Part shown: positions 1 through 43,143 of the stretch, one piece after another | Layout: the number at the start of each line of letters is the position of its first letter | How positions within the stretch are numbered: the stretch's first letter is position 1 | Assembly (NCBI GenBank): GCA_017451395.1 | Contig: JAFSPR010000117.1 | Span: 1-43,143, forward strand | DNA length: 43,143 nucleotides | Origin: Bacteroidales bacterium | Lineage (GTDB): Bacteria; Bacteroidota; Bacteroidia; Bacteroidales; UBA932 | Direction of reading: 5' to 3' | Notes under the pieces: generated by a model | Database searches by the model: none | What the model was told of the DNA's origin: nothing | The model's input: only the letters and a program-made list of their open reading frames with translations | Made by a program: the position numbers and the translations under genes

Positions 1-932
1 ATATAACCGGTGTTGTCCGGGATAGCGTGGGTGATGTCTCCGTCGTTGAGGGTGGTGACTGCAATGATGGTGATGGAGCCTTCCGTAGGGAGCTGCACGG
101 CCTTTTCATAGATCTTTGCAAGGTCACTGTAGAGTGAACCCGGCATGGAGTCCTTGGAAGGGATCTGGTCCATACGGTTGGACACGATGGAAAGGGCATC
201 GGCATAGAGGGTCATGTCGGTGAGGAGCACCAGCACTTTCTCATTCTTGTCCACGGCAAAGTATTCTGCTGCGGTAAGAGCCATATCCGGCACCAGGAGG
301 CGTTCCACAGGGGGATTCTCCGTGGTGTTGATGAAGCAGATGATCTTGTCAAGGGCACCTGCCTCCTCAAAGCGGTGGCGGAAGTAAAGGTAGTCGTCAT
401 TGGTAAGACCCATACCGCCCAGGATGATCTTGTCTACGTCGGCACGGATAGCTACATCGGCCATGACCTGGTTGTAAGGTTGGTCGGGGTCTGCGAAGAA
501 CGGGATCTTCTGGCCGGAGACGAGGGTGTTGTTAAGGTCTATGCCGGCAATACCGGTGGGGATGAGCTGTGAAGGCTGACGGCGCTTGTAAGGGTTTACG
601 GAAGGGCCGCCGATCTGGCGCTCTTCGCCCTCGATCTCCGGGCCTCCGTCAAGGGGATGGCCATAAGCGTCAAAGAATCGGCCGGCAAGCTGGTCACTCA
701 CCTTCAGGGTAGGGGGTTCTCCAAGGAAAGTCACCTCTGCGTTTGAGGGGATACCTTCCGTGCCGGAGAAAACCTGCAGGGTAATGAGGTCTCCCTTGAT
801 GCGGACAACCTGAGCAAGACGGCCGCCCACAACGGCAAGTTCATCGTTGGAAACGCCTTTTGCACGTAATGAAACCGTGGCCTTTGTAATGCCTTCCAGT
901 TTTGTATATACTTTTTGGTATGCTTTGTTCAT
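1..932 (-). CDS. atpB: V-type ATP synthase subunit B, partial (C-terminus off the left edge)
   Basis: This is the regulatory, non-catalytic nucleotide-binding subunit of the V1 head of a V/A-type ATPase, which couples ATP turnover to H+ or Na+ movement across the inner membrane. The start is the ATG at 932 (MNKAYQKVYTKLEGITKATV), four bases after the subunit A stop. The frame stays open to base 1, giving about 310 of the family's usual 430-440 residues. Conserved stretches are GGPEIEGEERQIGGPSVNPYKR, split here as GGPEIEGEE and GPSVNPYKR, then LIPTGIAGIDLNN, TDMTLYADALSIVSNRMDQIPS and PGSLYSDLAKIYEKA. There is no GxxxxGK[ST] P-loop, as expected for B and unlike A. It is the fourth gene of the operon E-DUF2764-A-B. 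The gene symbol follows the V-type atpA/atpB convention, not the F-type one. Confidence 0.95.
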   Translation of the reverse strand, partial: MNKAYQKVYTKLEGITKATVSLRAKGVSNDELAVVGGRLAQVVRIKGDLITLQVFSGTEGIPSNAEVTFLGEPPTLKVSDQLAGRFFDAYGHPLDGGPEIEGEERQIGGPSVNPYKRRQPSQLIPTGIAGIDLNNTLVSGQKIPFFADPDQPYNQVMADVAIRADVDKIILGGMGLTNDDYLYFRHRFEEAGALDKIICFINTTENPPVERLLVPDMALTAAEYFAVDKNEKVLVLLTDMTLYADALSIVSNRMDQIPSKDSMPGSLYSDLAKIYEKAVQLPTEGSITIIAVTTLNDGDITHAIPDNTGY

Positions 933-936
933 AAGG

Positions 937-2679
937 CTATGCGATCATTTTCTTAACGGAGTCATTGTAGGCCTTGAACTGCTCACTCTCATAGGCGGAG
1001 TAGTTCATCTGGCGAAGCTCGTTGATGAGTGTCTTGAAGAACTCACGGCACTTCTCAAAGTCTTCGAAGTCATAGTCCTTTGCGCAGATTTCCAGGACAA
1101 GGTCCAGCATGAAGCGCTGGCGCTCCAGCGGGCAAAGGGCGTCGATGGCGTCAAAGGCATCCTGCTGCAGGATGACAAAGTCCACAAGCTCACTCTTCCA
1201 GAAGTTTACGTGGTAACTCATGGGTACTCCGTCGTCGCCAAGGATGTTGATCTGCTCTGAGGCTTCCTTTCCGCGGCGGATGAGGTTCTTGGCGGTAAGC
1301 ACCTTGTCCACCCATCCGGGCTCTATTGTCTCGTCAAGGTATGCGCGGATTTCAGGGTAATCCAGGTACTTGGAATAGGACTCCAGAGGGCCTACGGCGG
1401 GGTAACGCTTTTGGTCGGCGCGGTTTTGCTCCAGTGCGTAGAAGCAGCGTGCCGCCTTCTTGGTGCTTTCCGTAACGGGCTCCTTGAGGTTACCGCCGGC
1501 AGGGGAAACAGTGCCGATAAACGTGACGGCTCCGGTCTGCCCGTTATTCAGGACTACCATGCCCGCGCGGGCGTAGAAATTGGAGATGATGGCCGACAGG
1601 TCCACGGGGAAGGCATCGGCACCGGGGAGTTCCTCCATACGGTTACTCATCTCACGGAGAGCCTGTGCCCAGCGGGAGGTGGAATCGGCCAGAAGGAGGC
1701 ATTTGAGGCCCATGGCCCTGTAGTACTCGCAGATGGTCATGGCGGTGTAGACGGAGGCCTCACGGGCTGCAACGGGCATGTTTGAAGTGTTGCAGATGAT
1801 GGTTGTACGCTCCATCAGGTGACGGCCGGTGTGGGGGTCTATGAGCTCAGGGAATTCCGTGAAGATTTCCACAACCTCGTTGGCGCGCTCGCCGCAGGCT
1901 GCCATCACAATTACATCGGCATCACCCTGCTTTGCGATGGCGTGCTGAAGGACGGTCTTACCGCAGCCGAAGGGGCCCGGGATAAAGCCCGTACCGCCTT
2001 CTGCGATGGGGTTGAGGGTGTCTATTACGCGTACGCCCGTTTCCATGATCTTGTTGGGGCGCGGCTTTTCCTTGTAGCCCTTGATGGCAACCTTTACGGG
2101 CCATTTCTGGGTCATGGTGACGTTCACTTTCTCACCTTCCTCATTGCGGAGGACGGCAATCACGGTGTCTACGTTGTACTCTCCTGCTTCCTTGATGGAT
2201 TCAACAGTGAAGGTGCCCTTGAAGCTGAAGGGAACCATGATCTTGTGGGGAAGCCAGCCTTCCTTTACCTCGCCAAGCCAGTCGGCCGCAATCACGGTGT
2301 CTCCGGGCTTTGCGATGGGGGTGAAGTCCCAAAGTTTCTCACGGTTAAGGGGATCCGTGTATTCTCCTCTTTTCAGGAATACACCGGTCATGGTAGTGAG
2401 GTCATTTTGAAGACCGTCGTAGGTGCTGGAGAGAAGGCCGGGGCCAAGGGTGACCTCCAGCATCCTGCCCTCGAATTCAACCTCATTGCCGCCTTTCACT
2501 CCGCGGGTGCTCTCGAACACCTGCACGGATGCCAGGTTTCCGTTAACCTTGATAACCTCTGCCATCAGTTTCACTCCTTCGGAGGTGATGTAGCAGATTT
2601 CGTTCTCGGAAACCGGGCCGTCTACCTCTACGGTAACAAGGTTGGAGACGATTCCCTTTACAATACCTTTAGTTTTCAT
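937..2679 (-). CDS. atpA: V-type ATP synthase catalytic subunit A
   Basis: This is the catalytic ATP-binding subunit of the V1 sector, acting on the cytoplasmic face of the inner membrane. At 580 residues it is full length for the family. The P-loop GPFGCGKT lies at about residues 235-242, preceded by the A-subunit non-homologous region (about 110-200) that separates A from B and from F-type beta. Other family stretches are MAACGERANEV, LLADSTSRWAQALREMSNRMEE and GTVSPAGGNLKEPVT. The ATG at 2679 lies four bases beyond the DUF2764 stop, and its own stop is four bases before the subunit B start, so translation is probably coupled along one operon. No promoter was seen directly upstream, so it should be transcribed from the one in front of atpE. 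Confidence 0.97.
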   Translation of the reverse strand: MKTKGIVKGIVSNLVTVEVDGPVSENEICYITSEGVKLMAEVIKVNGNLASVQVFESTRGVKGGNEVEFEGRMLEVTLGPGLLSSTYDGLQNDLTTMTGVFLKRGEYTDPLNREKLWDFTPIAKPGDTVIAADWLGEVKEGWLPHKIMVPFSFKGTFTVESIKEAGEYNVDTVIAVLRNEEGEKVNVTMTQKWPVKVAIKGYKEKPRPNKIMETGVRVIDTLNPIAEGGTGFIPGPFGCGKTVLQHAIAKQGDADVIVMAACGERANEVVEIFTEFPELIDPHTGRHLMERTTIICNTSNMPVAAREASVYTAMTICEYYRAMGLKCLLLADSTSRWAQALREMSNRMEELPGADAFPVDLSAIISNFYARAGMVVLNNGQTGAVTFIGTVSPAGGNLKEPVTESTKKAARCFYALEQNRADQKRYPAVGPLESYSKYLDYPEIRAYLDETIEPGWVDKVLTAKNLIRRGKEASEQINILGDDGVPMSYHVNFWKSELVDFVILQQDAFDAIDALCPLERQRFMLDLVLEICAKDYDFEDFEKCREFFKTLINELRQMNYSAYESEQFKAYNDSVKKMIA

Positions 2680-2683
2680 ATGT

Positions 2684-3331
2684 TTATTTGTCTTTATAAT
2701 CTACTCCTTTGAATGTGCCGCGAACTTCCATCACAAGCTTCTGGAATTTCTCACGTCCCCTTTCCTCGTCCAGCTCCAGCCAGCGGTCCACTATATGCAG
2801 TTTGGCAACATAGCAGAGGACTGCCGTGATGTCAAAATAGTGGAAGGTACCAAGGGAGTCTATGACTTCCCAGGTTACGTCGTCAAGGGCCTGCTCCCTG
2901 TCAAGAAGGCTTGAAAGGGCAAGGGCGGTCTGGACCCTGGCCTCTTCCTTGAATTCTCCGCCGGTGAAGCGGTAGCCGTCAATGTCCAGGCCTTCATCAG
3001 CGTCTTCACCCCTGCCGTCAAGGATATCCTGCCCGGCAGCCCTGCCAAGTGCGTCATTGATATAGCTCACCTTGGCGTTACGGAGGTTTAGGTCATAGCG
3101 GAAATACTCCCTGATGAATTTCACGGGGTGGGAGAGGGCCGAAGCATAGAAATCCGGAACAAGGTTGTCCGGGCCGAAACCGCGAAGGAGAAAATCCAGG
3201 GCCTCCGCGTCTTTTTCAGAGAGGTTGTCCTTGATTTCCTCTATGACATTTGTCCAGCCGCGGCCTTCCTGATAGCGGAAATCCTGGGTGAGGAAGGGCA
3301 GAGACGCAATTATGTATTCGAAATTGCTCAT
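2684..3331 (-). CDS. DUF2764 family protein of the V-ATPase operon
   Basis: This 215-residue acidic, largely helical soluble protein has no signal peptide and no membrane segment. It begins MSNFEYIIASLPFLTQDF and contains FLLRGFGPDN and SHPVKFIREYFRYDLNLRNAKV. DUF2764 genes are known to sit between subunits E and A in V-ATPase operons of Bacteroidales. Their position where subunit C would be expected, plus their size, has led to the idea that they act as a C/d-like central-stalk adaptor; that role is inference. It starts three bases after the subunit E stop and ends four bases before the subunit A start. Nothing in it suggests catalysis. Family assignment is from recognised sequence pattern and context. 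Confidence 0.8.
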   Translation of the reverse strand: MSNFEYIIASLPFLTQDFRYQEGRGWTNVIEEIKDNLSEKDAEALDFLLRGFGPDNLVPDFYASALSHPVKFIREYFRYDLNLRNAKVSYINDALGRAAGQDILDGRGEDADEGLDIDGYRFTGGEFKEEARVQTALALSSLLDREQALDDVTWEVIDSLGTFHYFDITAVLCYVAKLHIVDRWLELDEERGREKFQKLVMEVRGTFKGVDYKDK

Positions 3332-3334
3332 ACT

Positions 3335-3934
3335 CTAGCCGAAGAGGATCTTCTTGGTGGCGGGACGCATGTATTCCCCCACAAGGGCCTTGAAGGAGTC
3401 TTCAGTGAGGCTGATGAAATAGCTGCCGTCCTTGGGGCCGATGGAAAAGCCGCCGGCGATCTTCTTGGAGAAGGATGCCTCAATGCCTTTCCCCACAGCC
3501 TTGGAAAGTTCTTTGGTAACGAAGGGCTCCAGCTCTTTCTGGAGGGATTCCGGGAGAATTACGGCAAGGTCCTGGGGCTCCTCTGCGCTGAAATGCTTTG
3601 CGACCTCCGTGATGATGTCCTTGAGAAAACCGGCGTCCCTGAGGTCTTTTGCGGCGGGCTCCACGGCCTTTGCAATAATGAGGGACTCAATGCTGGCCTT
3701 TGTGGCCTGAAGGGCCTGTGCCGAAGCGGTCTTGACGTCTCCTTCCACGCGAATGCGGTAGTCTTCGGCCTCTTTGCGGGCCTTTGAGAGGATGGCCTCG
3801 GCTTCTTCATTGGCTTTTTTCACAATAGCTTTGGCGTCTGCCTTAGCCTTTGAGAGGATGGCCTCTCCTTCTTCTTTTCCTTTTGAAAGACCTTCTTCGT
3901 AGAGTTTCTTGGTCAGTTCCTGGAGTTTGTCCAT
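3335..3934 (-). CDS. atpE: V-type ATP synthase subunit E (peripheral stalk)
   Basis: This is the peripheral-stalk subunit that links the V1 head to the membrane sector. The N-terminal 80 residues form a charged, alanine-rich helix with repeated AEAILSKA/EGEAILSKA segments, typical of the E coiled coil. The C-terminal globular half ends at ATKKILFG. Two starts are possible: ATG 3958 (adds MENTKNLN) and ATG 3934 (MDKLQELTKKLYEEGL). I chose 3934, giving 199 residues, because relatives begin at this LQELTKKLYEEG stretch and because the -7 element at 3966-3973 predicts a transcript starting near 3960-3961, leaving only 2-3 bases before 3958 but about 27 before 3934. It is the first gene of the visible V-ATPase operon. 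Confidence 0.88.
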   Translation of the reverse strand: MDKLQELTKKLYEEGLSKGKEEGEAILSKAKADAKAIVKKANEEAEAILSKARKEAEDYRIRVEGDVKTASAQALQATKASIESLIIAKAVEPAAKDLRDAGFLKDIITEVAKHFSAEEPQDLAVILPESLQKELEPFVTKELSKAVGKGIEASFSKKIAGGFSIGPKDGSYFISLTEDSFKALVGEYMRPATKKILFG

Positions 3935-3965
3935 ATTAAGATTTTTAGTGTTTTCCATAAGTGTA

Positions 3966-3973
3966 CAAATATA
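3966..3973 (-). promoter_or_regulatory. -7 element (TATATTTG) for the V-ATPase operon
   Basis: Read on the minus strand this is TATATTTG, a full match to the Bacteroidota TAnnTTTG -7 consensus. Transcription should begin about five bases downstream, near 3961. No TTTG -33 box is present at the usual distance. It is separated by only 12 bases from the divergent -7 element at 3986-3993. Confidence 0.65.
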
Positions 3974-3985
3974 GCGAATAATTCT

Positions 3986-3993
3986 TATATTTG
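3986..3993 (+). promoter_or_regulatory. -7 element (TATATTTG) for the serine hydrolase gene
   Basis: A perfect TAnnTTTG match. The predicted start of transcription is near 3998, about 17 bases before the ATG at 4015. It overlaps the in-frame TTG at 3991, which argues against that TTG being a start codon. No clear -33 box is seen. Confidence 0.65.
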
Positions 3994-4014
3994 CGAGGGA
4001 AAACCTTATATAAA

Positions 4015-5265
4015 ATGCGCCGTATCCTTATTTTTGCTTTCATTTTGTGCTCTCTTCTCATTCTGCCGTCGGCCCATGTGCCGGGAAACGAAAACGGTGT
4101 GCCGTGGGCTCCTCCGGAGTCGGCAGGCATGGATCCTGTGCGCCTGTCTCTGATAGACAGCACGGTAAACGCATCCATCTTGAACCACGACATCCCCGGA
4201 GCCGTGGTGGGCGTTGTCCATGGAGGCAAGATAGTTTTCGGCAGGGCTTACGGACTCAAGACCGTGGTGCCCCATGAAGAGGACATGACGGTGGAGACTA
4301 TGTTCGACCTTGCTTCCGTTTCAAAGTGCGTTAGCACCACCGTTGCGGTGATGCAGCTTGTGGAGGAGGGAAGGCTCCGGCTTGTAGACCAGGTGCGCCT
4401 CTATATCCCGGGTTTCAAGCCCTGGGTGAATCCAGTAAACAAAAAGAAGGTGCACATTACCGTGCAGGACCTTCTCACCCATTCTTCCGGCCTGGAGGCC
4501 TTCCTGAAGGATGTGCCCGGTTTTGTGGAAAAGTACGGTGAGGGTAACTCTGATGCCCTTATAGAATATATCTCAAACGGTCCCAGGAATTTTGAGCCCG
4601 GCACGGATGTCCTTTACAGCTGCTTCAATTTCATAGTGCTCCAAAGGATAGTGGAGCGCATTACGGGGCAGCGGCTCTGTGACTATGCCAAGGCCAATAT
4701 CTTCGACAGGCTGGGCCTTCGGCATACCTGCTATTTCCCGCTTGATTCCGTAAGCCTTTTGTCCCGTGACACCGCACTTGTGAGGCTCTGCGCCCCTACG
4801 GAGGTCCTCAAGGACGGCCATACCCTCAAGGCCGAAGTCCACGACCCCACAGCCCGTCAGGTGAACATGGGCAATTCCGGCAACGCCGGGGTGTTTTCAA
4901 ACATGGAAGACCTTGCCGTAATTTGCCAGGCCCTTCTGAACGGCGGCTCCTGGAACGGGAAACGGATACTTTCTCCGCTTACCGTAAAGCGCATGTTCAC
5001 GGTTCCTAAGGACAATGACCCTAAGGTTGGAAGGGCCCTTGGGTGGGATGCCTACGACCTTAGCCCTTATCTTTGCGGAGACGTGTTCAATACTTCCACC
5101 ACCCGCGGCCATACAGGCTACACGGGCACTTCCGTCCTTCTGGACCTTGAAACCAAGACGGCGGTGATTATCCTTGCCAACAGGGTGCATCCCTCGGATA
5201 TTGGCTCCCTGTCGCGCATGCGCTCCACAATCGCTTCCATTGTGGGCTCCTCAATCCTGGATTAA
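4015..5265 (+). CDS. Serine hydrolase, beta-lactamase class C / penicillin-binding-protein-like
   Basis: This is a secreted hydrolase of the beta-lactamase superfamily (Pfam Beta-lactamase, PF00144), 416 residues from ATG 4015. The N-terminus, MRRILIFAFILCSLLILPS, is a signal peptide. The catalytic SxxK motif is S101-V-S-K104 (in LASVSKCVSTTV), and a C-terminal HTG is present in RGHTGYTGTS. The second motif, usually YxN or YSD, reads YSCFNFIVLQ, so its third position is cysteine. Family members include D-aminopeptidases, esterases and cell-wall peptidases; the substrate cannot be read from sequence. The gene is alone on its strand, diverges from the V-ATPase operon, and its stop overlaps the stop of the convergent mmdB at a TTAA palindrome. 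Confidence 0.85.
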   Translation: MRRILIFAFILCSLLILPSAHVPGNENGVPWAPPESAGMDPVRLSLIDSTVNASILNHDIPGAVVGVVHGGKIVFGRAYGLKTVVPHEEDMTVETMFDLASVSKCVSTTVAVMQLVEEGRLRLVDQVRLYIPGFKPWVNPVNKKKVHITVQDLLTHSSGLEAFLKDVPGFVEKYGEGNSDALIEYISNGPRNFEPGTDVLYSCFNFIVLQRIVERITGQRLCDYAKANIFDRLGLRHTCYFPLDSVSLLSRDTALVRLCAPTEVLKDGHTLKAEVHDPTARQVNMGNSGNAGVFSNMEDLAVICQALLNGGSWNGKRILSPLTVKRMFTVPKDNDPKVGRALGWDAYDLSPYLCGDVFNTSTTRGHTGYTGTSVLLDLETKTAVIILANRVHPSDIGSLSRMRSTIASIVGSSILD

Positions 5266-6422
5266 CCCAGGAAGCTCAGAAGAATACCAGCTGCAACCGC
5301 AGAGCCAATGACGCCGGCTACGTTTGGAGCCATGGCGTGCATGAGGAGGTGATTGGATGGATCGGCCTCCAGGCCCACGGTTTCGGATACGCGCGCAGCA
5401 TCAGGTACGGCCGAAACTCCGGCGTTCCCGATGAGGGGGTTGATCTTCTTTTCTTCAGAGAGGAAGAGGTTCATGAATTTCACGAATCCCACGCCGAAGG
5501 TTGTGGCAATCACAAACGAAGCAAGTCCAAGGCCGAAGATGAGCACTGAGCGGCCTGTTAGGAAGACATCGGCCTGGGTGGATGCGCCCACGGTGAGGCC
5601 TATGAGGGTGGTGACGATGTCGATGAGCGGGCCTCCGGCCGTGGCGGCAAGGCGCTTTGTGACGCCGCTTTCCTTGAGGAGATTGCCGAAGAACAGCATG
5701 CCAAGTAGGGGCAGGCCGCTGGGAACTATGAAGGCCGTGCAGATGAAGCCAAGGATAGGGAAGACAATCTTTTCCCTCTGGCTTACCTCGCGGGGCTTTC
5801 TCATGCGTATGAGGCGCTCCTTCTTGGTGGTGAGAAGCAGCATTATGGGCTTCTGGATAACGGGTACAAGAGCCATGTAAGAGTAGGCCGATACCGCAAT
5901 TGCGCCCATGAGTTCAGGGGCAAGCTTGGAGCTAAGGAAAATGGCCGTGGGTCCGTCTGCGCCGCCGATTATGCCAATTGCACCGGCTTCGTTGGGCGCG
6001 AATCCAAGGAGGAGAGCAAGAAGGTATGCGCCGAAGATGCCAAGCTGGGCGGCCGCGCCTATGAGGATGAGCCTGGGCTGGGAGATAAGGGCGCTGAAAT
6101 CAGTCATTGCGCCTATCCCCAAAAAGATAAGCGGCGGATACCAGCCGTTGCGTACGCCGTGATAGAGGATGTTGAGCACGGAACCGTCCTCGTAGATGCC
6201 TATTTTGAGGCCTGCACCCGTTGCGGGATCAAAGAACAGCGGGATGTTTCCCACTATCATCCCAAAGCCGATGGGCACAAGGAGGAGCGGCTCCCATTTT
6301 TTTACAATTCCAAGCGTAATGAAAATGAGGCCGATTGCAATCATGGCCAGGTGCTGCCATGTGCAGTTTGCAAATCCGGTGTACTGCCAGAACTGCTGCA
6401 GGCTGTCTATAATGGTATCCAT
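5262..6422 (-). CDS. mmdB: Sodium-translocating decarboxylase beta subunit (methylmalonyl-CoA decarboxylase type)
   Basis: This is the integral-membrane subunit that carries out decarboxylation of carboxybiotin coupled to Na+ export. It has 386 residues and many hydrophobic segments. The family-defining region GIIGGADGPTAIFLSSKLAP contains an aspartate, D156 here, that corresponds to the Na+-site aspartate known in OadB/MmdB; the conserved segment TTLIGLTVGASTQADVFL is also present. It is the last gene of the mmdA-mmdD-mmdC-mmdB set, and its ATG shares one base with the TGA of the biotin carrier gene (TGATG), so translation is probably coupled. Oxaloacetate or glutaconyl-CoA decarboxylase beta subunits are close relatives; the alpha subunit next door favours an acyl-CoA substrate. 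Confidence 0.93.
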   Translation of the reverse strand: MDTIIDSLQQFWQYTGFANCTWQHLAMIAIGLIFITLGIVKKWEPLLLVPIGFGMIVGNIPLFFDPATGAGLKIGIYEDGSVLNILYHGVRNGWYPPLIFLGIGAMTDFSALISQPRLILIGAAAQLGIFGAYLLALLLGFAPNEAGAIGIIGGADGPTAIFLSSKLAPELMGAIAVSAYSYMALVPVIQKPIMLLLTTKKERLIRMRKPREVSQREKIVFPILGFICTAFIVPSGLPLLGMLFFGNLLKESGVTKRLAATAGGPLIDIVTTLIGLTVGASTQADVFLTGRSVLIFGLGLASFVIATTFGVGFVKFMNLFLSEEKKINPLIGNAGVSAVPDAARVSETVGLEADPSNHLLMHAMAPNVAGVIGSAVAAGILLSFLG

Positions 6423-7295: not shown

Positions 7296-8832
7296 GTTTC
7301 TTGGCCGGTATTTCCTGACGTTTAGACTGCAGCTGCTCCAGGGCGCGGATTACGCGGAAGCGGGTGTTGCGGGGCTCTATTACGTCATCTATGTAACCTT
7401 TCTGGGCAGCCTGATAGGGATTTGAGAAGAGGTCTTCGTACTCCTTCTTCTTTTCCTCGAAGATGGCCTTTGCGTTTTCGGGGTCTGCCTTTATTTCCTT
7501 TGCGTAGAGCACGTTGACTGCTCCGTCTGCGCCCATTACGGCAATCTGTGCGCTGGGCCAGGCGTAGTTGATGTCTCCGCGAAGCTGCTTGCAGCTCATG
7601 ACAATGTGGGCGCCGCCGTAACCTTTCCTGAGCGTTACCGTAACCTTGGGGACGGTGGCTTCTCCGTATGCGTAAAGGAGTTTTGCGCCGTTTGTAATGA
7701 TGGCTCCGTACTCCTGCTGGGTGCCGGGAAGGAAGCCGGGAACATCAACCAGGGTAACCAGGGGGATGTTGAAGGCGTCGCAGAAGCGAACAAAGCGGGC
7801 TGCCTTTCGGCTGGCGTTTATATCCAGCACGCCGGCAAGCATCTGGGGCTGGTTGGCCACAATTCCCACGCTTCGGCCTGCAAAGCGTGCAAAACCAACA
7901 ATAATGTTCTTGGCGAAGTCCTTGTGAATCTCAAAGAACTCTCCGTCATCTACTATGCTCCCGATGACTCCGTACATGTCGTAGGCCTTGTTGGGGTTGT
8001 CCGGGACAATTGAGTTGAGGGAGTCGTCCACTCTTCCCACAGGGTCTGAGGTTTCCTTGAGGGGAGCGGTTTCCATGTTGTTCTGGGGAAGGTAGCTAAG
8101 GAGCTTCTTGATGGTTGCAATGGCATCTTCCTCGGTTTCTGCGGCAAAGTGGGCGACCCCGCTTTTTGAGGCATGCACGGATGCACCGCCAAGCTGTTCC
8201 TGGTCCACCACCTCTCCTGTAACGCTTTTTACCACGGCAGGGCCTGTGAGGAACATGTAGGAGGTGTTTTTCACCATGAGGGTGAAGTCCGTGAGGGCGG
8301 GGGAGTAAACCGCGCCGCCTGCGCAGGGACCCATTATGCAGCTAATCTGGGGAACGACGCCGCTGGATAGGATATTGCGCTCGAAAATCTCTCCGTAGCC
8401 GGCAAGGGCGTCAATGCCTTCCTGGATACGTGCTCCGCCGCTGTCGTTGAGGCCGATGCACGGCGCTCCGTTACGCAGGGCCATGTCCTGCACCTTGCAG
8501 ATTTTCTCGCTCATGGTTTTGGAGAGCGAGCCTCCGCTGACTGTGAAATCCTGTGCAAAGACATACACCAGACGGCCGTCAATGGTTCCGCATCCGGTTA
8601 CTACTCCGTCTCCGTCCGGGTGACTTTTTTCCATGCCGAAATTGGTGCAGCGGTGCTGGACAAACATGTCAAACTCCTCAAAGCTGCCGGGATCCAGAAG
8701 GAGGTCCAGGCGCTCCCGGGCAGTGAGTTTGCCCTTTGCGTGCTGAGCTTCAATCCTTTTCTCACCGCCGCCAAGGCGTGCCTTTGCGCGGCGCTGAACC
8801 AGTTTCTCAATATTATCTGACTGTATACTCAT
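7276..8832 (-). CDS. mmdA: Acyl-CoA carboxyltransferase, methylmalonyl-CoA decarboxylase alpha subunit
   Basis: This cytoplasmic subunit transfers the carboxyl group from methylmalonyl-CoA (or a similar acyl-CoA) to biotin. Its 518 residues form the two-domain carboxyltransferase fold. Recognisable stretches are [46 protein letters not shown] with the oxyanion glycines, [32 protein letters not shown] and [18 protein letters not shown]. The same family includes propionyl-CoA carboxylase beta, but the mmdD, mmdC and mmdB genes following it, and the absence of a biotin carboxylase gene, mark this as the decarboxylase. The ATG at 8832 lies about 28 bases after the predicted transcript start. It probably runs the methylmalonyl-CoA to propionyl-CoA step of succinate fermentation while pumping Na+. 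Confidence 0.95.
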
Positions 8833-20248: not shown

Positions 20249-20260
20249 TCTGGATGCCTT

Positions 20261-35659: not shown

Positions 35660-37095
35660 CACTGACCTCCTACAGTTAGATTGCCTATAAGTACGGTGGG
35701 TATGCCGCAGCTCACGGGCACGGACTGCTCTTTGCCGCATGTCCAGGCACCGGGATCCACCACAAGGTCATCGGCCACGCCGCGGATATCGGCAAGGGCC
35801 GCAGGACCGTTTCCTATGATGTTTATATCCTTCACAGGCATTGTGAGACGGCCGTTCTCTATCATGTAGCCGGACTTTACGTAAAAGGTGAAATCTCCTT
35901 CCCCTATCTGCACCTGTCCGTTTGAGAATTCATCCACAAAAATGCCCTTGGAGACATCAGCAATGAGGTCCGCCGCCTTTGCAGAGCCGCTTTCCATGTA
36001 GGTTGCCCTCATCCTTGGGAGGGGAGCGTAGCGGAAGCTTTCACGGCGGCCGTTACCTGTGGGCTTTACCCCGTAATGGGCGGCCGATATCCGGTCATGG
36101 AGATAAGAAGTAAGTATGCCGTCCTCAACCATGTAGGTCTTCTGCCCCGGGATACCTTCGTCGTCAAAGTTTATGGCGCCGCGGTTACCCTGGAGAGTTC
36201 CGTCGTCAATGATATTAATGCCTTCAGGGCATATCCTGGAGCCCATTTTATCGGCAAAGATGGATGTGCCCTTGCGGTTGAAATCGGCCTCGAAGGCATG
36301 GCCCATGGCTTCATGGAGAAGGATGCCGGAAGCACCGGCGCCCATCACAACGGGCATACGGCCGCCTTCCGGGCGCCTGGCGGCAAAGCGGTCGTCTATG
36401 CCTTTGACTATGTCGGAGGCCATTTCTTCTGCCAGGGCGGGGGAGAGCATCTCTGCGCCGCAGCGGAAACTGCGTGAAGTGGATTTGTTCTCCAAGGCCC
36501 CGTCCTGCTGGAAGATTGCGCTCACGGATACACTCCCCATGGGCCTGGTCTCATATTTCAGCTCCCTGGCGCTGTTGTACATGAGGATGTCGCTCACTGA
36601 GTATGCCAGATTCACAATTACCTTGCGGATGCGATTGTCCCTTGAGCGTACATTGGCATCCAGGGCCTGCAGGAAGGGGAGGAAGCCCGCAACGGGCACC
36701 TCACGCCAATTCTGCTTGACCGGATAACGGTCGGCTGCAGGATTGGGCTCCCCGCGGCTGGGGTTGCGGGTGCCGTAGGGGTTTACGTCCGAGGGACCGT
36801 CGGCAATCTGTGCGGCGGCGCGGGCGCAGGCAAGGATATCGGCCTTTAGTGTGCTCTCCGAGTATGCGTAGCCGGTCTTTTCTCCGGAAAGGACGCGTAC
36901 GCCAACCCCGTAATCTATGTGGCAGCCGCCTGAAGTCACGGCGCCGTCCCTTAGGAGGAGAGAGCCGTAACTGGTGTTTTCAAAGTATAGGTCTGAGTAA
37001 CTTCCGCCGCTTCTGAGGCCTTCTGCGATGACGGCGTCAAGAAGCGGGACATCCACCTTGAATATGTCTAAATAATACTGCTTACTCTGTATCAT
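35659..37095 (-). CDS. tldD: TldD-type metalloprotease subunit
   Basis: The catalytic subunit of the TldD/TldE heterodimer, 478 residues from ATG 37095 (MIQSKQYYLDIFKVD); longer in-frame sequence to 37128 would need a TTG start. The zinc motif is HEAMGH starting at H261 (LLHEAMGHAFEADF). Other conserved parts are YSDLYFENTSYGSL, RVLSGEKTGYAYSE, MPVVMGAGASGILL, GTLQGNRGAINFDDEG and PRMRATYMESG. The start overlaps the end of the P-loop gene by 14 bases, and TldE follows with a one-base overlap, so the two subunits are made in step. Confidence 0.95.
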   Translation of the reverse strand: MIQSKQYYLDIFKVDVPLLDAVIAEGLRSGGSYSDLYFENTSYGSLLLRDGAVTSGGCHIDYGVGVRVLSGEKTGYAYSESTLKADILACARAAAQIADGPSDVNPYGTRNPSRGEPNPAADRYPVKQNWREVPVAGFLPFLQALDANVRSRDNRIRKVIVNLAYSVSDILMYNSARELKYETRPMGSVSVSAIFQQDGALENKSTSRSFRCGAEMLSPALAEEMASDIVKGIDDRFAARRPEGGRMPVVMGAGASGILLHEAMGHAFEADFNRKGTSIFADKMGSRICPEGINIIDDGTLQGNRGAINFDDEGIPGQKTYMVEDGILTSYLHDRISAAHYGVKPTGNGRRESFRYAPLPRMRATYMESGSAKAADLIADVSKGIFVDEFSNGQVQIGEGDFTFYVKSGYMIENGRLTMPVKDINIIGNGPAALADIRGVADDLVVDPGAWTCGKEQSVPVSCGIPTVLIGNLTVGGQ

Positions 37096-37759
37096 CCGTG
37101 CTATGGTAGGGAACTCCGTCGTGGGCAAGGGGAGCCTTCGAGAGTTCCTTGATTATGAGTTCTGCGGGATTTTCCGTGTGCTGGATGGGCTCAGAGGTGT
37201 CGCTTATGACGGCTTTCACCTTCTGGTACTTTTCCATATCACGTATGGCGAAACCCTTCTTAGATCCTTCCGCTATGATGGCAAACGGAGGGCGGGAATT
37301 ATCGGCCAGGATCCATTTGTCGCAGGTTTGCATATAGCCGTTGAAAAGGTAGTACACGCCCATACGGTAGCGGCGGCGGATAGTTTCCTCAGGGACGTCG
37401 TGGCCGCCGGCCTGGACCCTGTTGGCAACCCTTTGGACCGCCATATCGGGGGACTCCAGCCACAGGTACAGCACCGTTACATAGTACCCAAGTTCCTGGG
37501 CCTTGCGCGTCATCTTGATGAGGGCGCGCGTTGCGAGGGTGGTCTCTATGCAGAAGTCCTCCCTGCGGTCAAAGAGGTACTGCACCTTTTTCAGCATCAG
37601 GCGGCTTGCAGTGATGTAGGCACCCTCAGGCGCAAACGGCGAGAGGTGCTTTGCAAACTCATCCGAGTTCACAAATTCACTGCAGTCCAGCAGCTCCGGG
37701 AGAATGCTGTAAGAAGCCGTAGTCTTCCCGGAGCCGTTGGGACCTGATATAATGTACAT
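37082..37759 (-). CDS. Zeta-toxin-like P-loop ATPase/kinase
   Basis: A 225-residue P-loop protein beginning MYIISGPNGSGKTTASYSIL, with the Walker A motif G6-PNGSG-K12-T13 at the very N-terminus. A zeta-toxin-type acidic loop follows (SEFVNSDEFAKHLSPF), then a conserved IETTLATRALIKM segment. It resembles the predicted ABC-type ATPases of COG4185 and zeta toxins, which phosphorylate UDP-sugars. No epsilon-like antitoxin gene is beside it. The ATG at 37759 was chosen over a GTG at 37768 because it puts the P-loop at the usual place. It lies between the POT transporter and TldD in a housekeeping-type operon, so a metabolic kinase role is as likely as a toxin role. Confidence 0.78.
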   Translation of the reverse strand: MYIISGPNGSGKTTASYSILPELLDCSEFVNSDEFAKHLSPFAPEGAYITASRLMLKKVQYLFDRREDFCIETTLATRALIKMTRKAQELGYYVTVLYLWLESPDMAVQRVANRVQAGGHDVPEETIRRRYRMGVYYLFNGYMQTCDKWILADNSRPPFAIIAEGSKKGFAIRDMEKYQKVKAVISDTSEPIQHTENPAELIIKELSKAPLAHDGVPYHSTDDTE

Positions 37760-37769: not shown

Positions 37770-39290
37770 TTATTCCGTGGCAGCCTCCAGCTTTTTCATC
37801 ATTGCGAACATAAAGACTGCGGAGATGACGCAGACGCCAAGGAATACGCTCCAGACAACCCACAGGGGCAGAGGACCCCAGAGGTGACCGCCAACCTGGA
37901 CAAGGAAGTTGCCGAGGGCGGTGGCAACAAACCACATACCCATCATCATACCCTTGTACTTGGGCGGGGCAACCTTGGAAACGAATGAGATGCCCATAGG
38001 GCTAAGGAGAAGTTCTCCGAAGGTGAGGATAAGATACACGGTGATAAGCCAGTAGGGAGAAACCAGGGTCTCTTCTACGCCTCCGCGTACAGTTGCCTGA
38101 TATGCAGGGGTATTAAGGCCGATTGAAGCGAACGCCATAAGGCCGAAAGCCACTGCTGCAACCAGCATACCGTATGCGATCTTGCGGGGAGCGCTGGGCT
38201 CCTTGCCCTTTGCCGCCAGGGCTCCGAAGATGGCCATAGAGACAGGTGTGAGGGCAACTACATAGAACGGGTTGAAGTGCTGGAAGATAGGGGCGCTGAT
38301 CTCTATGCTGCCGCTGAGGCGGGTGTACTGCCACACAAGGTATGCGCAGGCAAGGGCCACGACGCCGACGCCGATCCACTTGCCATTCTTGGACGTCTCC
38401 TTGTCAAAGATGGAGAAGAGGGCATACACAATTGCAATCACTGCCACAAGGTTGAATACGTTGAAGGGCATGGATGCAATTCCGGAAGAACTTCTCTCCG
38501 TGAATTCATCGGCAAAGTAGGTGAGGGTGAGGCCGTTCTGGTGGAAACTCATCCAGAAGAATATAACCACGGCGAACACCAGGAAGAGGGCCACCATGCG
38601 CTTTTTGGTCTGCTCCGGGGTGAGGGTGTCCACAACCTGGGCCTTCTCTCCCTTTGCGTGACCGCCTTCTACGTGCTTGAACCAGCCTCGGAAGGCGTAG
38701 TAGATGGCGATTGAAACGATAAGGGATACGCAGGCCACTGCAAATGAGAAGTGGTAGGCGGCGTTTCCGTCAAATCCAAGTGTCATTGCCCATTCCCTGA
38801 TCCTGATGGCTGCGGTAGGGGCAAAGAGGGCGCCGATATTGATGGCCATATAGAAAAGGGAGAATCCGGAATCACGCTTTGAGGCATACTGGGGGTCATT
38901 GTAGAGGTCTCCAACCATAACCTGGAGATTACCCTTGAATAGACCCGTGCCGAAGCCTATAAGAAGAAGCGCCGCAAGCATTGCCACAAGGGCTACGGTG
39001 CCTCCGCCAAGCGGAACTGATAGCAGCAGGTATCCTGCAAACATCACCAGGATGCCGGTTGTTACCATCTTTCCGAAGCCGAATTTATCGGCCAGGATAC
39101 CGCCGATGAGGGGGAAGAAGTACACCAGCATCAGGAATGAGGAGTAGATTGTGCCTGCGGTACCGGCGGAAAGGCCGAAGTTTGCCCTGAGGAAGAGGGC
39201 GAACACCGCAATCATGGTATAGTAACCGAAGCGCTCGCCGGTGTTGGCAAGGGCAAGGGCGAATAAGCCTTTGGGTTGTCCTTTAAACAT
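37770..39290 (-). CDS. POT-family proton-dependent di/tripeptide transporter
   Basis: An inner-membrane peptide importer of the POT/PTR2 family within the major facilitator superfamily, 506 residues and about 12-14 hydrophobic segments. The family signature is ALANTGERFGYYTMIAVFALFL near the N-terminus (its GERFGYY core corresponds to the ExxERFxYY proton-coupling motif). GTGLFKGNLQVMVGDLY, GFSLFYMAINIGALFAP and LSPMGISFVSKVAPPKYKGM are also typical. The start is ATG 39290; a TTG two codons earlier is in frame. It follows pepD by six bases, matching uptake with intracellular dipeptide hydrolysis. Confidence 0.95.
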   Translation of the reverse strand: MFKGQPKGLFALALANTGERFGYYTMIAVFALFLRANFGLSAGTAGTIYSSFLMLVYFFPLIGGILADKFGFGKMVTTGILVMFAGYLLLSVPLGGGTVALVAMLAALLLIGFGTGLFKGNLQVMVGDLYNDPQYASKRDSGFSLFYMAINIGALFAPTAAIRIREWAMTLGFDGNAAYHFSFAVACVSLIVSIAIYYAFRGWFKHVEGGHAKGEKAQVVDTLTPEQTKKRMVALFLVFAVVIFFWMSFHQNGLTLTYFADEFTERSSSGIASMPFNVFNLVAVIAIVYALFSIFDKETSKNGKWIGVGVVALACAYLVWQYTRLSGSIEISAPIFQHFNPFYVVALTPVSMAIFGALAAKGKEPSAPRKIAYGMLVAAVAFGLMAFASIGLNTPAYQATVRGGVEETLVSPYWLITVYLILTFGELLLSPMGISFVSKVAPPKYKGMMMGMWFVATALGNFLVQVGGHLWGPLPLWVVWSVFLGVCVISAVFMFAMMKKLEAATE

Positions 39291-39296
39291 ATGCAA

Positions 39297-40754
39297 TTAT
39301 TTTACTGGTACATTTTCAAGAACGGCCTTCAGATACTCCCAGGTGCGGGCTACGGAGGCGATGTTCACTTTTTCATCGGGGCTGTGGGGATATTTGATGG
39401 TGGGACCTACTGATACCATTTCCCAGTTGGGGTATTTGGCACCAAGGAGGGCGCACTCAAGGCCGCCGTGGGTGGCCATGATCTCCATATCCTCACCGGT
39501 CACCTTCTTGTACTGCTCCATCATGATCTTGTTCATGGGAGTGTCAAGTTTGGGTGTCCAGCCGCTGTAGCCGCCGGCAAACTGGATGTCATCGGCGCCG
39601 GCAAGTTCAAAGATGCAGCGCACGCGGTTTGCAAGGGCCGCCTTGGCGCTGTTGACGGAACTGCGCATAAGGCTGTGGATGGTGATTTTGCCCTTCTCTG
39701 TGCGTACAATGGCCATATTGATGGAGGTTTCCGTGAGGCCCTTCATTGTGCGGGACATACGGATAACCCCTGAAGGGCAGGCAAGCATTGCCTTCACGGC
39801 GCGGAGCATCACTGAAGGCTGGATGTGCTTGGGAGATGTTGCGCATTCTTCCACGATAAGGGTGGCTGTAGGGTCGCTCTCCTTGAATTCGGCCTTGATA
39901 CGGCCAAATTCGCTCTCAATCATCTGGCGCACGGCAGAAAGGTTCTCCTCAGGGACCACAAGTTCTGCCTCTGCCTCAAACGGGATGGCGTTACGGAGGG
40001 ACCCTCCGGTGAAGGAGACTACCTTCACGCCCAGAAGTTCAATGGCGGGAAGGATCATCCTGGCAACTGCCTTGTTGGCGTTTGCCCTGTAAAGGGATAT
40101 GTCCATTCCGGAATGGCCGCCCTGAAGGCCCTTTACGGTAACCTTGAGGCCCTTATATCCCGCAGGCGTATTGTATTTGAGGTATTTGAAGGTGGCCGAT
40201 ACATCAAGGCCGCCTGCGCAGCCAACGCAAAGTTCGCCTTCCTGCTCGGAGTCAAGATTCATCAGGATGTCTCCTTTCAGGACACCGGGCTCAAGGGTGT
40301 TTGCGCCGGTCATTCCTGTTTCCTCGTCATAGGTTACAAGAATCTCGATGGGACCGTGCTTTACGGACTTGTCCTCAATGGCGGAAAGGCCAAGGGCTAC
40401 GCCCATGCCGTTATCGGCACCAAGTGTGGTGCGGTCTGCGGTAACCCATTCTCCGTCAATATAGGCGTTGATGGGATCCTTCATGAAATCGTGGGAAGAG
40501 TCCGACGTCTTCTGGGGAACCATATCCATATGGCCCTGGATGATGACGCCCCTCCTGTTTTCCATACCGGGAGTTGCGGGAACGCGGATGATGATGTTGC
40601 CGCCTTTGTCGCGGATGGTCTCAAAACCGTGGCTGATGCCCCAGTTGTAGAGGTATTCAATCACTTTGCCCTCGTGCTTTGAGGGGCGGGGGATCTGTGT
40701 AAGATTGTAGAAGTTATTCCATACAATCCTCGGCTCAAGTTCTTTGATGCTCAT
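39297..40754 (-). CDS. pepD: Aminoacyl-histidine dipeptidase (PepD), M20 family
   Basis: A cytoplasmic zinc dipeptidase with 485 residues, full length for the family. The N-terminus IVWNNFYNLTQIPRPSKHEG is typical. Metal-site segments are IQGHMDMVPQK (His and Asp ligands), LGADNGMGVALGLSAIED, VTYDEETGMTGA and NLDSEQEGELCVGCAGG. The lid-domain stretch GLQGGHSGMDISLYRANANK and the C-terminal THGGLECALLGAKYPNWEMVS, which carries the last ligand region, are present. It cleaves broad dipeptides including carnosine-like ones. It comes directly before the POT transporter in the operon. Confidence 0.95.
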   Translation of the reverse strand: MSIKELEPRIVWNNFYNLTQIPRPSKHEGKVIEYLYNWGISHGFETIRDKGGNIIIRVPATPGMENRRGVIIQGHMDMVPQKTSDSSHDFMKDPINAYIDGEWVTADRTTLGADNGMGVALGLSAIEDKSVKHGPIEILVTYDEETGMTGANTLEPGVLKGDILMNLDSEQEGELCVGCAGGLDVSATFKYLKYNTPAGYKGLKVTVKGLQGGHSGMDISLYRANANKAVARMILPAIELLGVKVVSFTGGSLRNAIPFEAEAELVVPEENLSAVRQMIESEFGRIKAEFKESDPTATLIVEECATSPKHIQPSVMLRAVKAMLACPSGVIRMSRTMKGLTETSINMAIVRTEKGKITIHSLMRSSVNSAKAALANRVRCIFELAGADDIQFAGGYSGWTPKLDTPMNKIMMEQYKKVTGEDMEIMATHGGLECALLGAKYPNWEMVSVGPTIKYPHSPDEKVNIASVARTWEYLKAVLENVPVK

Positions 40755-40766: not shown

Positions 40767-41771
40767 TTAATTTGTTTTTACGGGATATGACGCTTCCTTC
40801 CCAAGTTGGTACACGGGAACGCGGGTCTCTACAAGCGGACGCCCGTCTTCCGTGAGTGTAAGCCTGCATATCATAGGGATGCGATATCTTATCTGGGTTG
40901 TCTTTCCTGCCTTCCTGGCCGATTGCGAGGCCTCTTCCCTCACCAGGGCCTCCGGCTCCAGTTCAATGTAGTAGGGCGTGCCCCGGCCGTTTGAAACCAG
41001 GCCGCGCTCAGGGTCCGTGCGGAAGGCAAGGTAGCGGTGATTCTTGACGTTTGCCTGAGGAATCACGTCAAAACTTGCCGTGAGTGTCCTTACCTGGCTG
41101 TAGCCGCGGAACATGGCAAGGTATTCCTCCTCCATCTGCCGTATTTCCTTGAGGGCGTCGGCCATGGCGGCTCCGGAAAAAGTGGCGTCAGTGTTGCCTG
41201 TAGCGATGTCAAGGCGCTGGGCGCGGAGTGAAAGGATGTGGTCTGCGGCTTCCTTTGCCCTGTCTTCCAGGGTCTTTGTCTCTATGAACTTCTCCTCCAC
41301 GGGGACGCGGACAAATGCTGTGTCCGTGGGGATGGTCTTGTATACTATGCGTTTAACCACCTTGGTGTCTCCGGTAAGTCCCTTGTCCGTGAAATCCCCG
41401 CGCATAGGCGGAAGGAAGCGCCAGGTTACGCCAAGTTCACCCTTTTCCCCGAAGGAAATGAGTCCCTGGGTGCTCAGAGCCATAAGTTCGGGGACATCGG
41501 CCTCCAGGAGGGTGGCCGATTTGCGGTCGGCTTCCACCGTGGGGGTGATGGTGGCGCTGAGAACGCGTGATGTAACTTCATCGGCACGGCGTACGTCTAT
41601 TCCAAGGAGTTTCTTTGCAAAGGCTGCGTAGGGGCCGGCAAAGAAGGTTTCCTGCTCCGCTTCCACTTCCACGGTGATGGTGGTGGAGGGGAGGTAATAG
41701 ATGCTTTCCTGGGCGGCGGCGCAAAACGCCACTGCCAAAGTAAGGATTGATGTTATTATTCTTTTTTCCAT
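40767..41771 (-). CDS. DUF4831 family exported protein
   Basis: A 334-residue protein exported by signal peptide MEKRIITSILTLAVAFCAAAQ. The start is ATG 41771, which overlaps the end of the acyltransferase gene by 16 bases; nine extra in-frame residues before it would spoil the signal. The body contains ESIYYLPSTTITVEVEAEQE, AAFAKKLLGIDVRRADEV and ILSLRAQRLDIATGNTDATF, a pattern I associate with DUF4831, a Bacteroidota family without known function. No catalytic residues are evident and the protein is probably periplasmic. The gene sits between an acyltransferase and pepD. Confidence 0.82.
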   Translation of the reverse strand: MEKRIITSILTLAVAFCAAAQESIYYLPSTTITVEVEAEQETFFAGPYAAFAKKLLGIDVRRADEVTSRVLSATITPTVEADRKSATLLEADVPELMALSTQGLISFGEKGELGVTWRFLPPMRGDFTDKGLTGDTKVVKRIVYKTIPTDTAFVRVPVEEKFIETKTLEDRAKEAADHILSLRAQRLDIATGNTDATFSGAAMADALKEIRQMEEEYLAMFRGYSQVRTLTASFDVIPQANVKNHRYLAFRTDPERGLVSNGRGTPYYIELEPEALVREEASQSARKAGKTTQIRYRIPMICRLTLTEDGRPLVETRVPVYQLGKEASYPVKTN

Positions 41772-42682
41772 CTTCTGTGTGTCCAGAGGTAGTTCCATGG
41801 CTGTGCCTTGATATCCTCTTCAAGGAGATTAAAATATTTCTGGGTTATTTCAAGCGGATCCATCGATCCGGCGTGTTCTGTTATTGGGACGAATGTCATG
41901 GAATAGCCGCCTTTCTCCCTGCACTGGAAACTGAGGTAGATGACCGCCATATCAGTCCTTGCCGCCACCGTGGCGGCTCCCGGCATTATCACGGTGTCAC
42001 GGTTCATAAAGCGGAGACTGTACTTTCGGTTGGGGCCGTAGGGGAACTGGTCCGTAATGAAGGAGTAGCAGAAGTGCTTGTCACGGTTTGAGAAGACCAC
42101 CCTTGCAATCTGCTGTGAGGGGACGTATCCGGTGAAGTCCATATCGGCCACGGGTGCCTGCCTGTTTTCACCTATGAAACTGTCCCAGAAATGGTTGTGG
42201 AGGGGGAGGTAGGTGATTGCAAAGGTGTGGGTGGTAATTTCAAGGGGCTCCGTATATGTGTAATTGAGGATGCCGCCTATCAGTTCCCAGTTTCCCGCGT
42301 GGGACTGCATTATCATAACCTGCTTTCGTTCACGGAAAAGGCGGTTGAGGACCTCGGGATTGGTAATCTCCACAATATGGCTGTCACGGAGGCGCTTACG
42401 GCCGCGGTCTCCCTTGCAGGAACCAAACCAGAGGGTTTCCGTAAGGATGTTCCCAAAGTGATGGTAAAACTTCTTTTCAATGGCTTTCAGTTCTGAGGCC
42501 GATTTTTCAGGGAAACTCTTCCTGAGGTTATCCCTCACCACATCCGTACGATAACGGACCACGCAGCGTACAAGCCATCCAAGGAAGCGGGCCATGGCGT
42601 GATGGTATGAAAGGGGAAGGCGTCCGTGAAGCCGGAGCCATCCCTGAGCCAATCCCTGCAATAATGTCTTTCCTTGAGCCAT
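41756..42682 (-). CDS. LpxL/HtrB-like lipid A-type acyltransferase
   Basis: An inner-membrane-associated acyltransferase of the lysophospholipid / lipid A biosynthesis family, 308 residues from ATG 42682 (MAQGKTLLQGLAQGWLRLH). The catalytic HxxxxE motif is H128-AGNW-E133 in MIMQSHAGNWELIGG. RTDVVRDNLRKSFPEKS and YSFITDQFP are typical of the group, and the C-terminus has PWNYLWTHRRWK, a well-conserved ending. It likely adds an acyl chain to lipid A or to another lipid such as an aminolipid. It is the first gene of the eight-gene operon; a TTG 12 bases earlier falls inside the -7 element and was rejected. Confidence 0.92.
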   Translation of the reverse strand: MAQGKTLLQGLAQGWLRLHGRLPLSYHHAMARFLGWLVRCVVRYRTDVVRDNLRKSFPEKSASELKAIEKKFYHHFGNILTETLWFGSCKGDRGRKRLRDSHIVEITNPEVLNRLFRERKQVMIMQSHAGNWELIGGILNYTYTEPLEITTHTFAITYLPLHNHFWDSFIGENRQAPVADMDFTGYVPSQQIARVVFSNRDKHFCYSFITDQFPYGPNRKYSLRFMNRDTVIMPGAATVAARTDMAVIYLSFQCREKGGYSMTFVPITEHAGSMDPLEITQKYFNLLEEDIKAQPWNYLWTHRRWKKE

Positions 42683-42754: not shown

Positions 42755-42758
42755 CAGT

Positions 42759-42790
42759 CCTTTTTGGGCCGGAAAAAGGCCAAAAATAGG
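42759..42790 (+). promoter_or_regulatory. rpsF leader hairpin, candidate S6:S18 autoregulatory element
   Basis: Right at the predicted transcript start, TTTTTGG (42761-42767) pairs with CCAAAAA (42780-42786). Inside, CC (42769-42770) can pair with GG (42778-42779) under a GGAAAAA loop, and CC at 42759-42760 can pair with GG at 42789-42790. A CCG triplet sits in the upper part (42769-42771); S6:S18-binding leaders in other bacteria use a CCG in a hairpin. There is no U-run after it, so it is not a terminator. Confidence 0.45.
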
Positions 42791-42823
42791 ATAACTTATT
42801 TATTAACAATTAATTAACAAACA

Positions 42824-43143
42824 ATGGTTAACCAGTACGAAACCGTTTTCATTGCAACTCCCGTTTTGTCTGATGCCCAGATGAAGGAAGCGGTTGCCAA
42901 GTACGTCAAGCTCATCACAGACAACGGTGGTGAGGTTGTGTACCAGGAGGATTGGGGCCTGCGTCAGCTCGCTTATCCCATCCAGCACAAGACCACAGGT
43001 TTTTATTACCTGATCGAGTTTAAGGCAGACTCACAGTTCGTTGCCACTCTTGAAACCCAGTATCACCGCGATGAGCGCATCATCCGCTTCCTTACCGTCG
43101 CCCTCGACAAGGATGCAGTTGCATACGCAGAGCGTCGTCGCGC
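42824..43143 (+). CDS. rpsF: 30S ribosomal protein S6, partial (C-terminus off the right edge)
   Basis: A small-subunit ribosomal protein that forms a dimer with S18. The visible 106 residues, from ATG 42824 ([20 protein letters not shown]), include [20 protein letters not shown] and [18 protein letters not shown], which are diagnostic. The frame is open at the last base. In Bacteroidales rpsR and rplI usually follow; they would lie outside this window. It diverges from the acyltransferase operon over a 141-base region that holds both promoters and the leader hairpin. Confidence 0.97.

Follow-up and report, generated by a model that had tools for sequence, protein, structure and literature searches.

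The window analysed here is a whole stretch of 43,143 nucleotides, contig C65 of a 2.15 Mb assembly (133 contigs, 81% complete) that represents a metagenome-assembled genome (MAG) of Candidatus Cryptobacteroides type, from an uncultured gut bacterium. By exact count it carries 34 copies of the 7-mer GGCCGAT and 32 of its complement ATCGGCC, the same numbers that a sequence-only reading of the window had arrived at by hand. This word, more loosely KGCCGAT with K standing for G or T, is probably a short oriented signal kept genome-wide by one clade of Candidatus Cryptobacteroides type, mostly by way of synonymous codons. It is in excess, spread over the whole genome, sharply defined, conserved in the sister species and reduced in the vicinity of copies of its own orientation only. 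In what follows G000 denotes the genome of the window, other G-numbers the genomes of relatives, L-numbers sampled loci or stretches and C-numbers contigs.

Genes were called by a simple longest-open-reading-frame (ORF) rule of our own, and 65 of the 66 copies in the window lie inside called genes (32 genes). Among 17 example positions given earlier for the word 16 were exact, the exception being 33111, where no word starts and the nearest copy is that at 33101; both reported fusions of two copies into the palindrome ATCGGCCGAT are present. All copies, each an exact match, are listed below (plus, GGCCGAT on the plus strand; minus, ATCGGCC on the plus strand).

456-462, minus, word
677-683, minus, word
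1684-1690, minus, word
3436-3442, plus, word
5361-5367, minus, word
5568-5574, minus, word
5886-5892, plus, word
6329-6335, plus, word
8451-8457, plus, word
9038-9044, minus, word
9488-9494, plus, word
9626-9632, minus, word
10856-10862, minus, word
11850-11856, minus, word
12036-12042, plus, word
12350-12356, plus, word
12516-12522, minus, word
13623-13629, minus, word
14430-14436, plus, word
14715-14721, plus, word
15874-15880, plus, word
16030-16036, plus, word
16579-16585, plus, word
18299-18305, minus, word
20162-20168, minus, word
20615-20621, minus, word
24249-24255, plus, word
25743-25749, minus, word
26646-26652, plus, word
26788-26794, minus, word
26892-26898, plus, word
27039-27045, minus, word, half of palindrome ATCGGCCGAT (27039-27048)
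27042-27048, plus, word, other half of the same palindrome
27675-27681, plus, word
27885-27891, minus, word
28080-28086, plus, word
29565-29571, minus, word
29958-29964, plus, word
30434-30440, minus, word, half of palindrome ATCGGCCGAT (30434-30443)
30437-30443, plus, word, other half of the same palindrome
30981-30987, minus, word
31469-31475, plus, word
32010-32016, plus, word
32466-32472, plus, word
32707-32713, plus, word
32960-32966, minus, word
33101-33107, minus, word
33151-33157, plus, word
33511-33517, plus, word
33799-33805, minus, word
33841-33847, minus, word
34675-34681, plus, word
34982-34988, plus, word
35770-35776, minus, word
36082-36088, plus, word
36283-36289, minus, word
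36838-36844, minus, word
37301-37307, minus, word
38117-38123, plus, word
39087-39093, minus, word
40194-40200, plus, word
40917-40923, plus, word
41496-41502, minus, word
41514-41520, plus, word
42143-42149, minus, word
42497-42503, plus, word

Excess, sharpness and codon spelling of the word

Synonymous shuffling of the codons of each gene in the window gave an expectation of 10.3 ± 3.0 copies, with a maximum of 19 in 300 shuffles, for the 65 observed; the excess, previously put at about tenfold, is of that order against equal base use but 6.3-fold against the shuffles. A maximal-order Markov model returned only a small excess (66 versus 55 expected, z 3.1) and is uninformative, because the inner 5- and 6-mers are themselves inflated by the word (ATCGGC 108 versus 76, GGCCGA 96 versus 60). 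Over the whole G000 genome 1,601 GGCCGAT and 1,572 ATCGGCC occur, amounting to 3,173 copies or 1.48 per kb, and the two orientations, reported as equally common from the window, are balanced in every stretch. A G000 sample of 420,439 bases, made up of the window and 20 further stretches and holding 307 called ORFs, contains 613 copies where synonymous shuffling predicts 89 (z 55), and no other 7-mer exceeds its expectation as strongly as ATCGGCC does. A stricter null, in which the bases adjoining each shuffled codon are preserved, yields 93.

The word is sharply bounded. Its single-base variants are rarer in the window, as had been stated, although "far rarer" fails for two of them, TGCCGAT/ATCGGCA (25) and GGCCGAA/TTCGGCC (21); GGCCGAC/GTCGGCC occurs 8 times. 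The same two are raised in the G000 sample against the codon null (3.5-fold and 1.85-fold, respectively), the other 19 of 21 variants reaching at most 1.2-fold. A general depletion of near-misses, apparent against that null, was discarded, since the null is inflated by the word's own codons; compared with a low-word pool of relatives (52 loci, L045-L104 minus L048, L051, L056, L061, L065, L077, L091 and L095, which carry either this word or a second one described below), near-miss words have a median of 0.88-0.99, though TGCCGAT and GGCCGAA are raised. On the 3' side of the word A is preferred (10-fold) and C is rarest (3-fold). In G000 the palindrome ATCGGCCGAT is found 56 times, compared with 3,173 words, the word itself being an asymmetric 7-mer. 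In 49.5 kb of intergenic DNA of G000 there are 51 wholly intergenic words, and with respect to genes the two orientations are almost equally frequent (498 and 557), which argues that the signal resides in DNA and not in RNA.

Codon choice depends on whether the neighbouring bases allow the word. In 569 genes (739 kb), serine followed by GCC is spelled TCG 332 times out of 354 when A precedes the codon and 5 times out of 54 when C does; aspartate following GCC is spelled GAT 447 times out of 509 if the base ahead of GCC is G and 53 times out of 115 if it is C. Together with the codon shuffles, this context dependence rules out codon or amino-acid preference as the cause, in agreement with the sequence-only reading. 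Considering writable sites, that is, places where the residues permit the word through synonymous codons, 1033 of 2624 are filled in G000 (39%), 1174 of 2677 in G207 (44%) and 484 of 1012 in G146 (48%), versus 133 of 3053 (4.4%) in the 52 low-word loci. Fill varies with gene GC, from 0.12-0.19 below 48% to 0.46-0.57 above 52%. Twelve of 345 genes with at least six writable sites hold no word; mobile DNA was rejected as their common nature, the ten that are annotated being mostly ordinary. A low-GC gene (0.44) at L015:8986-12369, encoding Sel1 repeats and a caspase-type domain, has 12 writable sites and no word.

G207 is the sister of G000 (92% DNA identity over 3 kb) and G146 is more distant (78% identity). 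Under the codon-preserving null the word is in excess in both, with 1202 copies versus 167 expected and 516 versus 107, respectively. In a 235 kb alignment of G000 and G207, with 88.6% identity, 646 of 833 comparisons (0.78, each pair counted from both sides) find the word intact, showing its conservation between the sister species. The mean for 1,080 words is 0.53; the word ranks fifth, and several near-ranking words overlap it.

Orientation-dependent spacing

Consecutive copies lie more often on opposite strands than on the same strand, with same/opposite counts of 418/588 in G000, 500/671 in G207 and 211/287 in G146, and eight control words in G000 show no alternation (lag-1 values of -0.07 to +0.19). 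Writable sites reveal what underlies these counts: a copy lowers the chance of same-orientation copies only, within about 40-200 bp, and opposite-orientation neighbours are unaffected. Where a same-orientation word lies 7-40 bp from the site, fill falls to 0.13 in G000 (n=69), 0.32 in G207 (n=79), 0.17 in G146 (n=47) and 0.00 in 12 other loci (n=19). With an opposite word at that distance it is 0.49 (n=98), 0.48 (n=123), 0.53 (n=58) and 0.53 (n=38), respectively.

The effect persists when residue context is controlled. Same-orientation pairs 7-40 bp apart number 5 for 19.2 expected in G000, 11 for 22.6 in G207, 4 for 13.0 in G146 and 0 for 5.0 in the other loci, and opposite pairs 28 for 23.7, 30 for 32.8, 21 for 15.7 and 12 for 10.4, respectively. 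Pooling was limited to G000 and G146, because G207 shares ancestry with G000 and is not independent of it, and because L034, one of the 12 other loci, apparently derives from the same contig as G146:C14, both being 95,048 long; in this pool 9 same-orientation pairs are found for 32.2 expected and 49 opposite pairs for 39.4 (p 4e-6). Suppression reaches as far as about 120-200 bp in G000 and G207; its reach in G146 is about 40 bp.

Control dipeptide words (206, 194 and 87 in G000, G207 and G146) show no such gap, their same-type observed/expected ratios at 7-40 bp being 1.22, 1.02 and 1.11; for the Ala-Asp spelling of the word the ratios are 0.21, 0.42 and 0.28 (2/9.7, 4/9.6 and 2/7.0). Cooperative inverted pairs, suggested by the neighbour statistics, were rejected, since at writable sites it is the same-orientation copies that are suppressed and the opposite ones are near expectation.

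Distribution among relatives and a second word

The close relatives of G000 are MAGs from rumen and gut, deposited under Bacteroidales, and some of the nearest protein matches are named Candidatus Cryptobacteroides. Among 151 congeners the word count per genome ranges from 18 to 4,066; by rounded genome sizes, the density is above 0.5 per kb in 25 genomes and above 1 per kb in 11. A tree of 81 ATPase-A proteins brings the word-rich rows together, apart from the more distant L091, an outlier; neighbours of this cluster, among them L027, L028, L031 and L043, are below the word threshold. Elsewhere in the order, 24 families were sampled, and none of their genomes approaches the density of the word-rich ones. 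In one of these families, G056 has a polar GGCCGAT distribution (383/224 over the whole genome), which was ruled unrelated, as the word is hardly enriched there (67 versus 44 in 235 kb) and the genome has a strong GC skew; on its contig C1 (L267-L278) the strand bias is 57 versus 11 in 235 kb, and the GC skew of this stretch is 0.08.

A different word, KGAATAT, is present in another clade of the genus, namely in L051, L056, L065, L077, G142 and G167. L051, L056, L065, L077 and L093 form one clade in the ATPase-A tree, and the first four pooled contain 77 GGAATAT versus 21 expected and 56 TGAATAT versus 16. In stretches L215-L230 TGAATAT occurs 64 times versus 9 in G142 and 111 versus 42 in G167. 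KGCCGAT and KGAATAT are alike in that G or T is tolerated as the first letter and the final two letters are AT. Whole-genome counts of GAATATT are 2,216 in G167 and 2,086 in G140; no clear KGAATAT signal was seen in the 40 kb sampled from each of G140 and G144. Among the matches listed for G142, many GAATATT occur on the two strands with an offset of one base, forming the palindrome GAATATTC, and the reversed control pattern is nearly absent (6 and 6). Locus L045 as a whole is enriched in CTCCGGA (29 versus 7.8) and ATCCGGA (17 versus 4.5), perhaps another iterated word.

As to the other contents of the window, it encodes a V-type ATP synthase subunit A, two beta-glucosidase/xylosidase-type proteins, a SusC/SusD pair and a PmbA/TldD-type protein, these genes lying at 937-2679, 8960-11281, 17126-21838, 25684-27930 and 34328-35740. 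CTAG is nearly absent from both strands of the window (4 versus 93 expected), GATC is depleted there (212 versus 332) and TCGA is strongly depleted in the G000 sample (521 versus 1736).

Candidate readers and significance of the word

The arrangement suggests that the word is probably a signal read strand by strand. A second nearby copy on the same strand would add little, and a copy on the other strand would act independently. Such orientation-specific redundancy points to a reader of one strand at a time, since an uptake tag, a symmetric site or a mutation bias would ignore neighbours or treat both orientations alike. We infer that the word benefits a function of the DNA, that selection maintains it and that its reader meets one strand at a time. 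The sequence-only reading had proposed DNA-uptake words or a site bound by a genome-wide protein; some protein acting throughout the genome is indeed likely, but uptake and a symmetric site are disfavoured by the same-orientation-only effect.

The most likely candidate for the reader, put forward tentatively, is a translocating AddAB-type repair enzyme, which might treat the word as a Chi-like signal arriving from either side of a break. Like the Chi sites of RecBCD, AddAB and RexAB, the word is short, non-palindromic, over-represented in genes, lineage-specific and presumably read in one orientation. An AddAB-like pair of PF12705 proteins occurs in 31 of 32 congeners tested, in word-rich and word-poor ones alike. 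Chi halts the nuclease and promotes recombination, and it is commoner in the core genome than in acquired DNA; here low-GC genes are poorly filled, but the ten annotated word-free genes are mostly ordinary. The AddB-like protein of G000 (L018:3591-6356) has 921 amino acids. When AddB was compared between word-rich and other genomes, the 12 full-length proteins differed as kinship predicts, and the KGAATAT group had no full-length one. The word is not filed as Chi, because Chi is polarised and the word is not, yet it may work like Chi without belonging to it; its earlier description as unlike Chi thus stands for polarity, but the orientation-specific interaction fits a Chi-type signal read on one strand. 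In the accessible part of PMC8022716, Chi sites that follow one another are expected to share a strand and Chi occurs in E. coli once per 5 kb, whereas the neighbours of the word are more often on opposite strands and its density is 1.48 per kb.

Several observations weigh against strand-wise reading or against its attribution to an AddAB-type enzyme. Neighbours do not alternate in the pooled loci L027-L042 (141 same, 142 opposite), and the effect is weaker in G207, where the odds ratio of same-orientation pairs closer than 60 bp is about 0.9, versus about 0.3 in G000 and 0.4 in G146. At Ile-Gly sites proximity to a same-orientation word brings no reduction, 14 of 19 being filled, and fill is flat beyond about 200 bp, where a rule of one signal per kilobase per strand predicts a rise. 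KGAATAT shows no orientation effect, although numbers are small (12 same and 7 opposite closer than 60 bp in the pooled clade). As regards the enzyme, known Chi is polarised with replication, and the word is unpolarised, balanced in every stretch and more often alternating between neighbours. AddAB-like genes are equally present in word-poor congeners and none is seen in G244, the AddB-like match of G000 is below curated cut-offs, and no solved (PDB) relative of this protein was found by sequence.

The main alternative, possible if far from assured, is another kind of strand-read signal that is bound or modified on just one strand, with a separate orientation for each strand; it may for instance be a DNA mark telling the old from the new strand or a site for a single-strand-specific protein. 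That case, too, predicts local suppression confined to one orientation together with strand balance, and the short range of 40-200 bp suits local action better than a recombination signal on the kilobase scale. A one-strand mark is at odds with the lack of matches above cut-off to the DNA methyltransferase families PF00145, PF01555, PF02384, PF07669 and PF02086 in the word-rich genomes G146, G149, G157 and G172 (82-88% complete, 1.1-1.7 words per kb), a search that left out further types of modification, phosphorothioation among them. Methylation was consequently rejected as the companion of the word, none of the five families being common to word-rich genomes; the sole C5-methyltransferase match of G000 (G000:C98:4799-5947, L120) has an internal TAA stop. 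The most novel of the possible readings, again far from assured, is that the asymmetric dialect words KGCCGAT and KGAATAT represent a new kind of signal, with each strand equipped independently and read as a single strand by a putative dedicated Bacteroidales protein, unrelated to Chi, uptake or methylation.

Mechanisms that do not involve reading of one strand fare less well. Biased mutation or repair, a ratchet of the HIP1 type (Elhai 2015) in which repair retains word-creating mutations without any function, is unlikely: it would act in genes and in intergenic DNA, as the 51 words in 49.5 kb do, and the poorer fill of atypical low-GC genes looks as if words accrue slowly, but the word is not palindromic, no methyltransferase of the five families accompanies it in the four word-rich genomes and plain mutational pressure would be blind to a same-orientation copy 30 bp away. 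Moreover, as far as the ratchet is set out in the accessible part of PMC4390886, interference is to be expected from marks on opposite strands and not from marks that share a strand. A DNA-uptake word, spread by uptake and recombination in competent cells that favour word-bearing DNA, is less probable still, even though the density of the word, its intragenic location, equal orientations and clade dialects recall the uptake words of Pasteurellaceae and Neisseriaceae and ComEC-type proteins occur in 31 of 32 genomes tested. These genomes include word-poor congeners, and apart from TGCCGAT and GGCCGAA there is no general rise of near-miss words. An opposite-orientation neighbour should be equally redundant, yet is not. 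The ComEC-type matches (G000:C67:41252-41974 and its congeners) lie in ORFs of only about 320-400 amino acids in nearly all 31 genomes and often end at a stop; the channel protein is perhaps short, or split. Least convincing is the loss of close same-orientation copies by short direct-repeat deletion, with the word as a symmetric protein-binding site. Deletion between direct repeats declines with distance, as the suppression does over 40-200 bp, but no such gap is seen for as many as 206 other common 7-base words that spell codon pairs, and several common words have an excess of close direct copies.

The word belongs with the highly iterated genomic words, a known class, but its rule of arrangement was not seen described in the literature covered. 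KOPS, the FtsK-orienting sequences, are likewise short oriented words spread along the chromosome, but they are polarised toward the terminus and GGCCGAT is not. The uptake sequences of Haemophilus (USS) and Neisseria (DUS) share with it a density of about one copy per kilobase, equal orientations and clade dialects; they differ in length, being 9-12 bases compared with 7. Orientation is without effect on uptake in the accessible part of PMC1939737, whereas only same-orientation neighbours are suppressed here. Cyanobacterial HIP1 and alternate HIPs are, in the accessible part of PMC4390886, highly iterated at about one per kilobase, replaced by another word in some relatives and of unsettled function; they are palindromes with a matching methyltransferase, and the present word is asymmetric, with none common among the five families. 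In the literature covered, which leaves out subscription papers and preprints, neither GGCCGAT nor ATCGGCC was found printed as a word, and no over-represented word of this kind was found described for Bacteroidetes or Bacteroidales.

Highly iterated words are rare, and each has pointed to a basic process such as recombination, DNA uptake or perhaps mismatch repair. The orientation-specific gap provides an easy way to tell classes of mechanism apart, and it could be used on HIP1, USS and DUS, for which the origin is still under debate. In the word-rich genomes measured, occupation of about 40-48% of the places that the proteins permit means that codon choice is shaped across the whole genome, and the existence of two dialects within one genus provides a natural experiment toward finding the reader.

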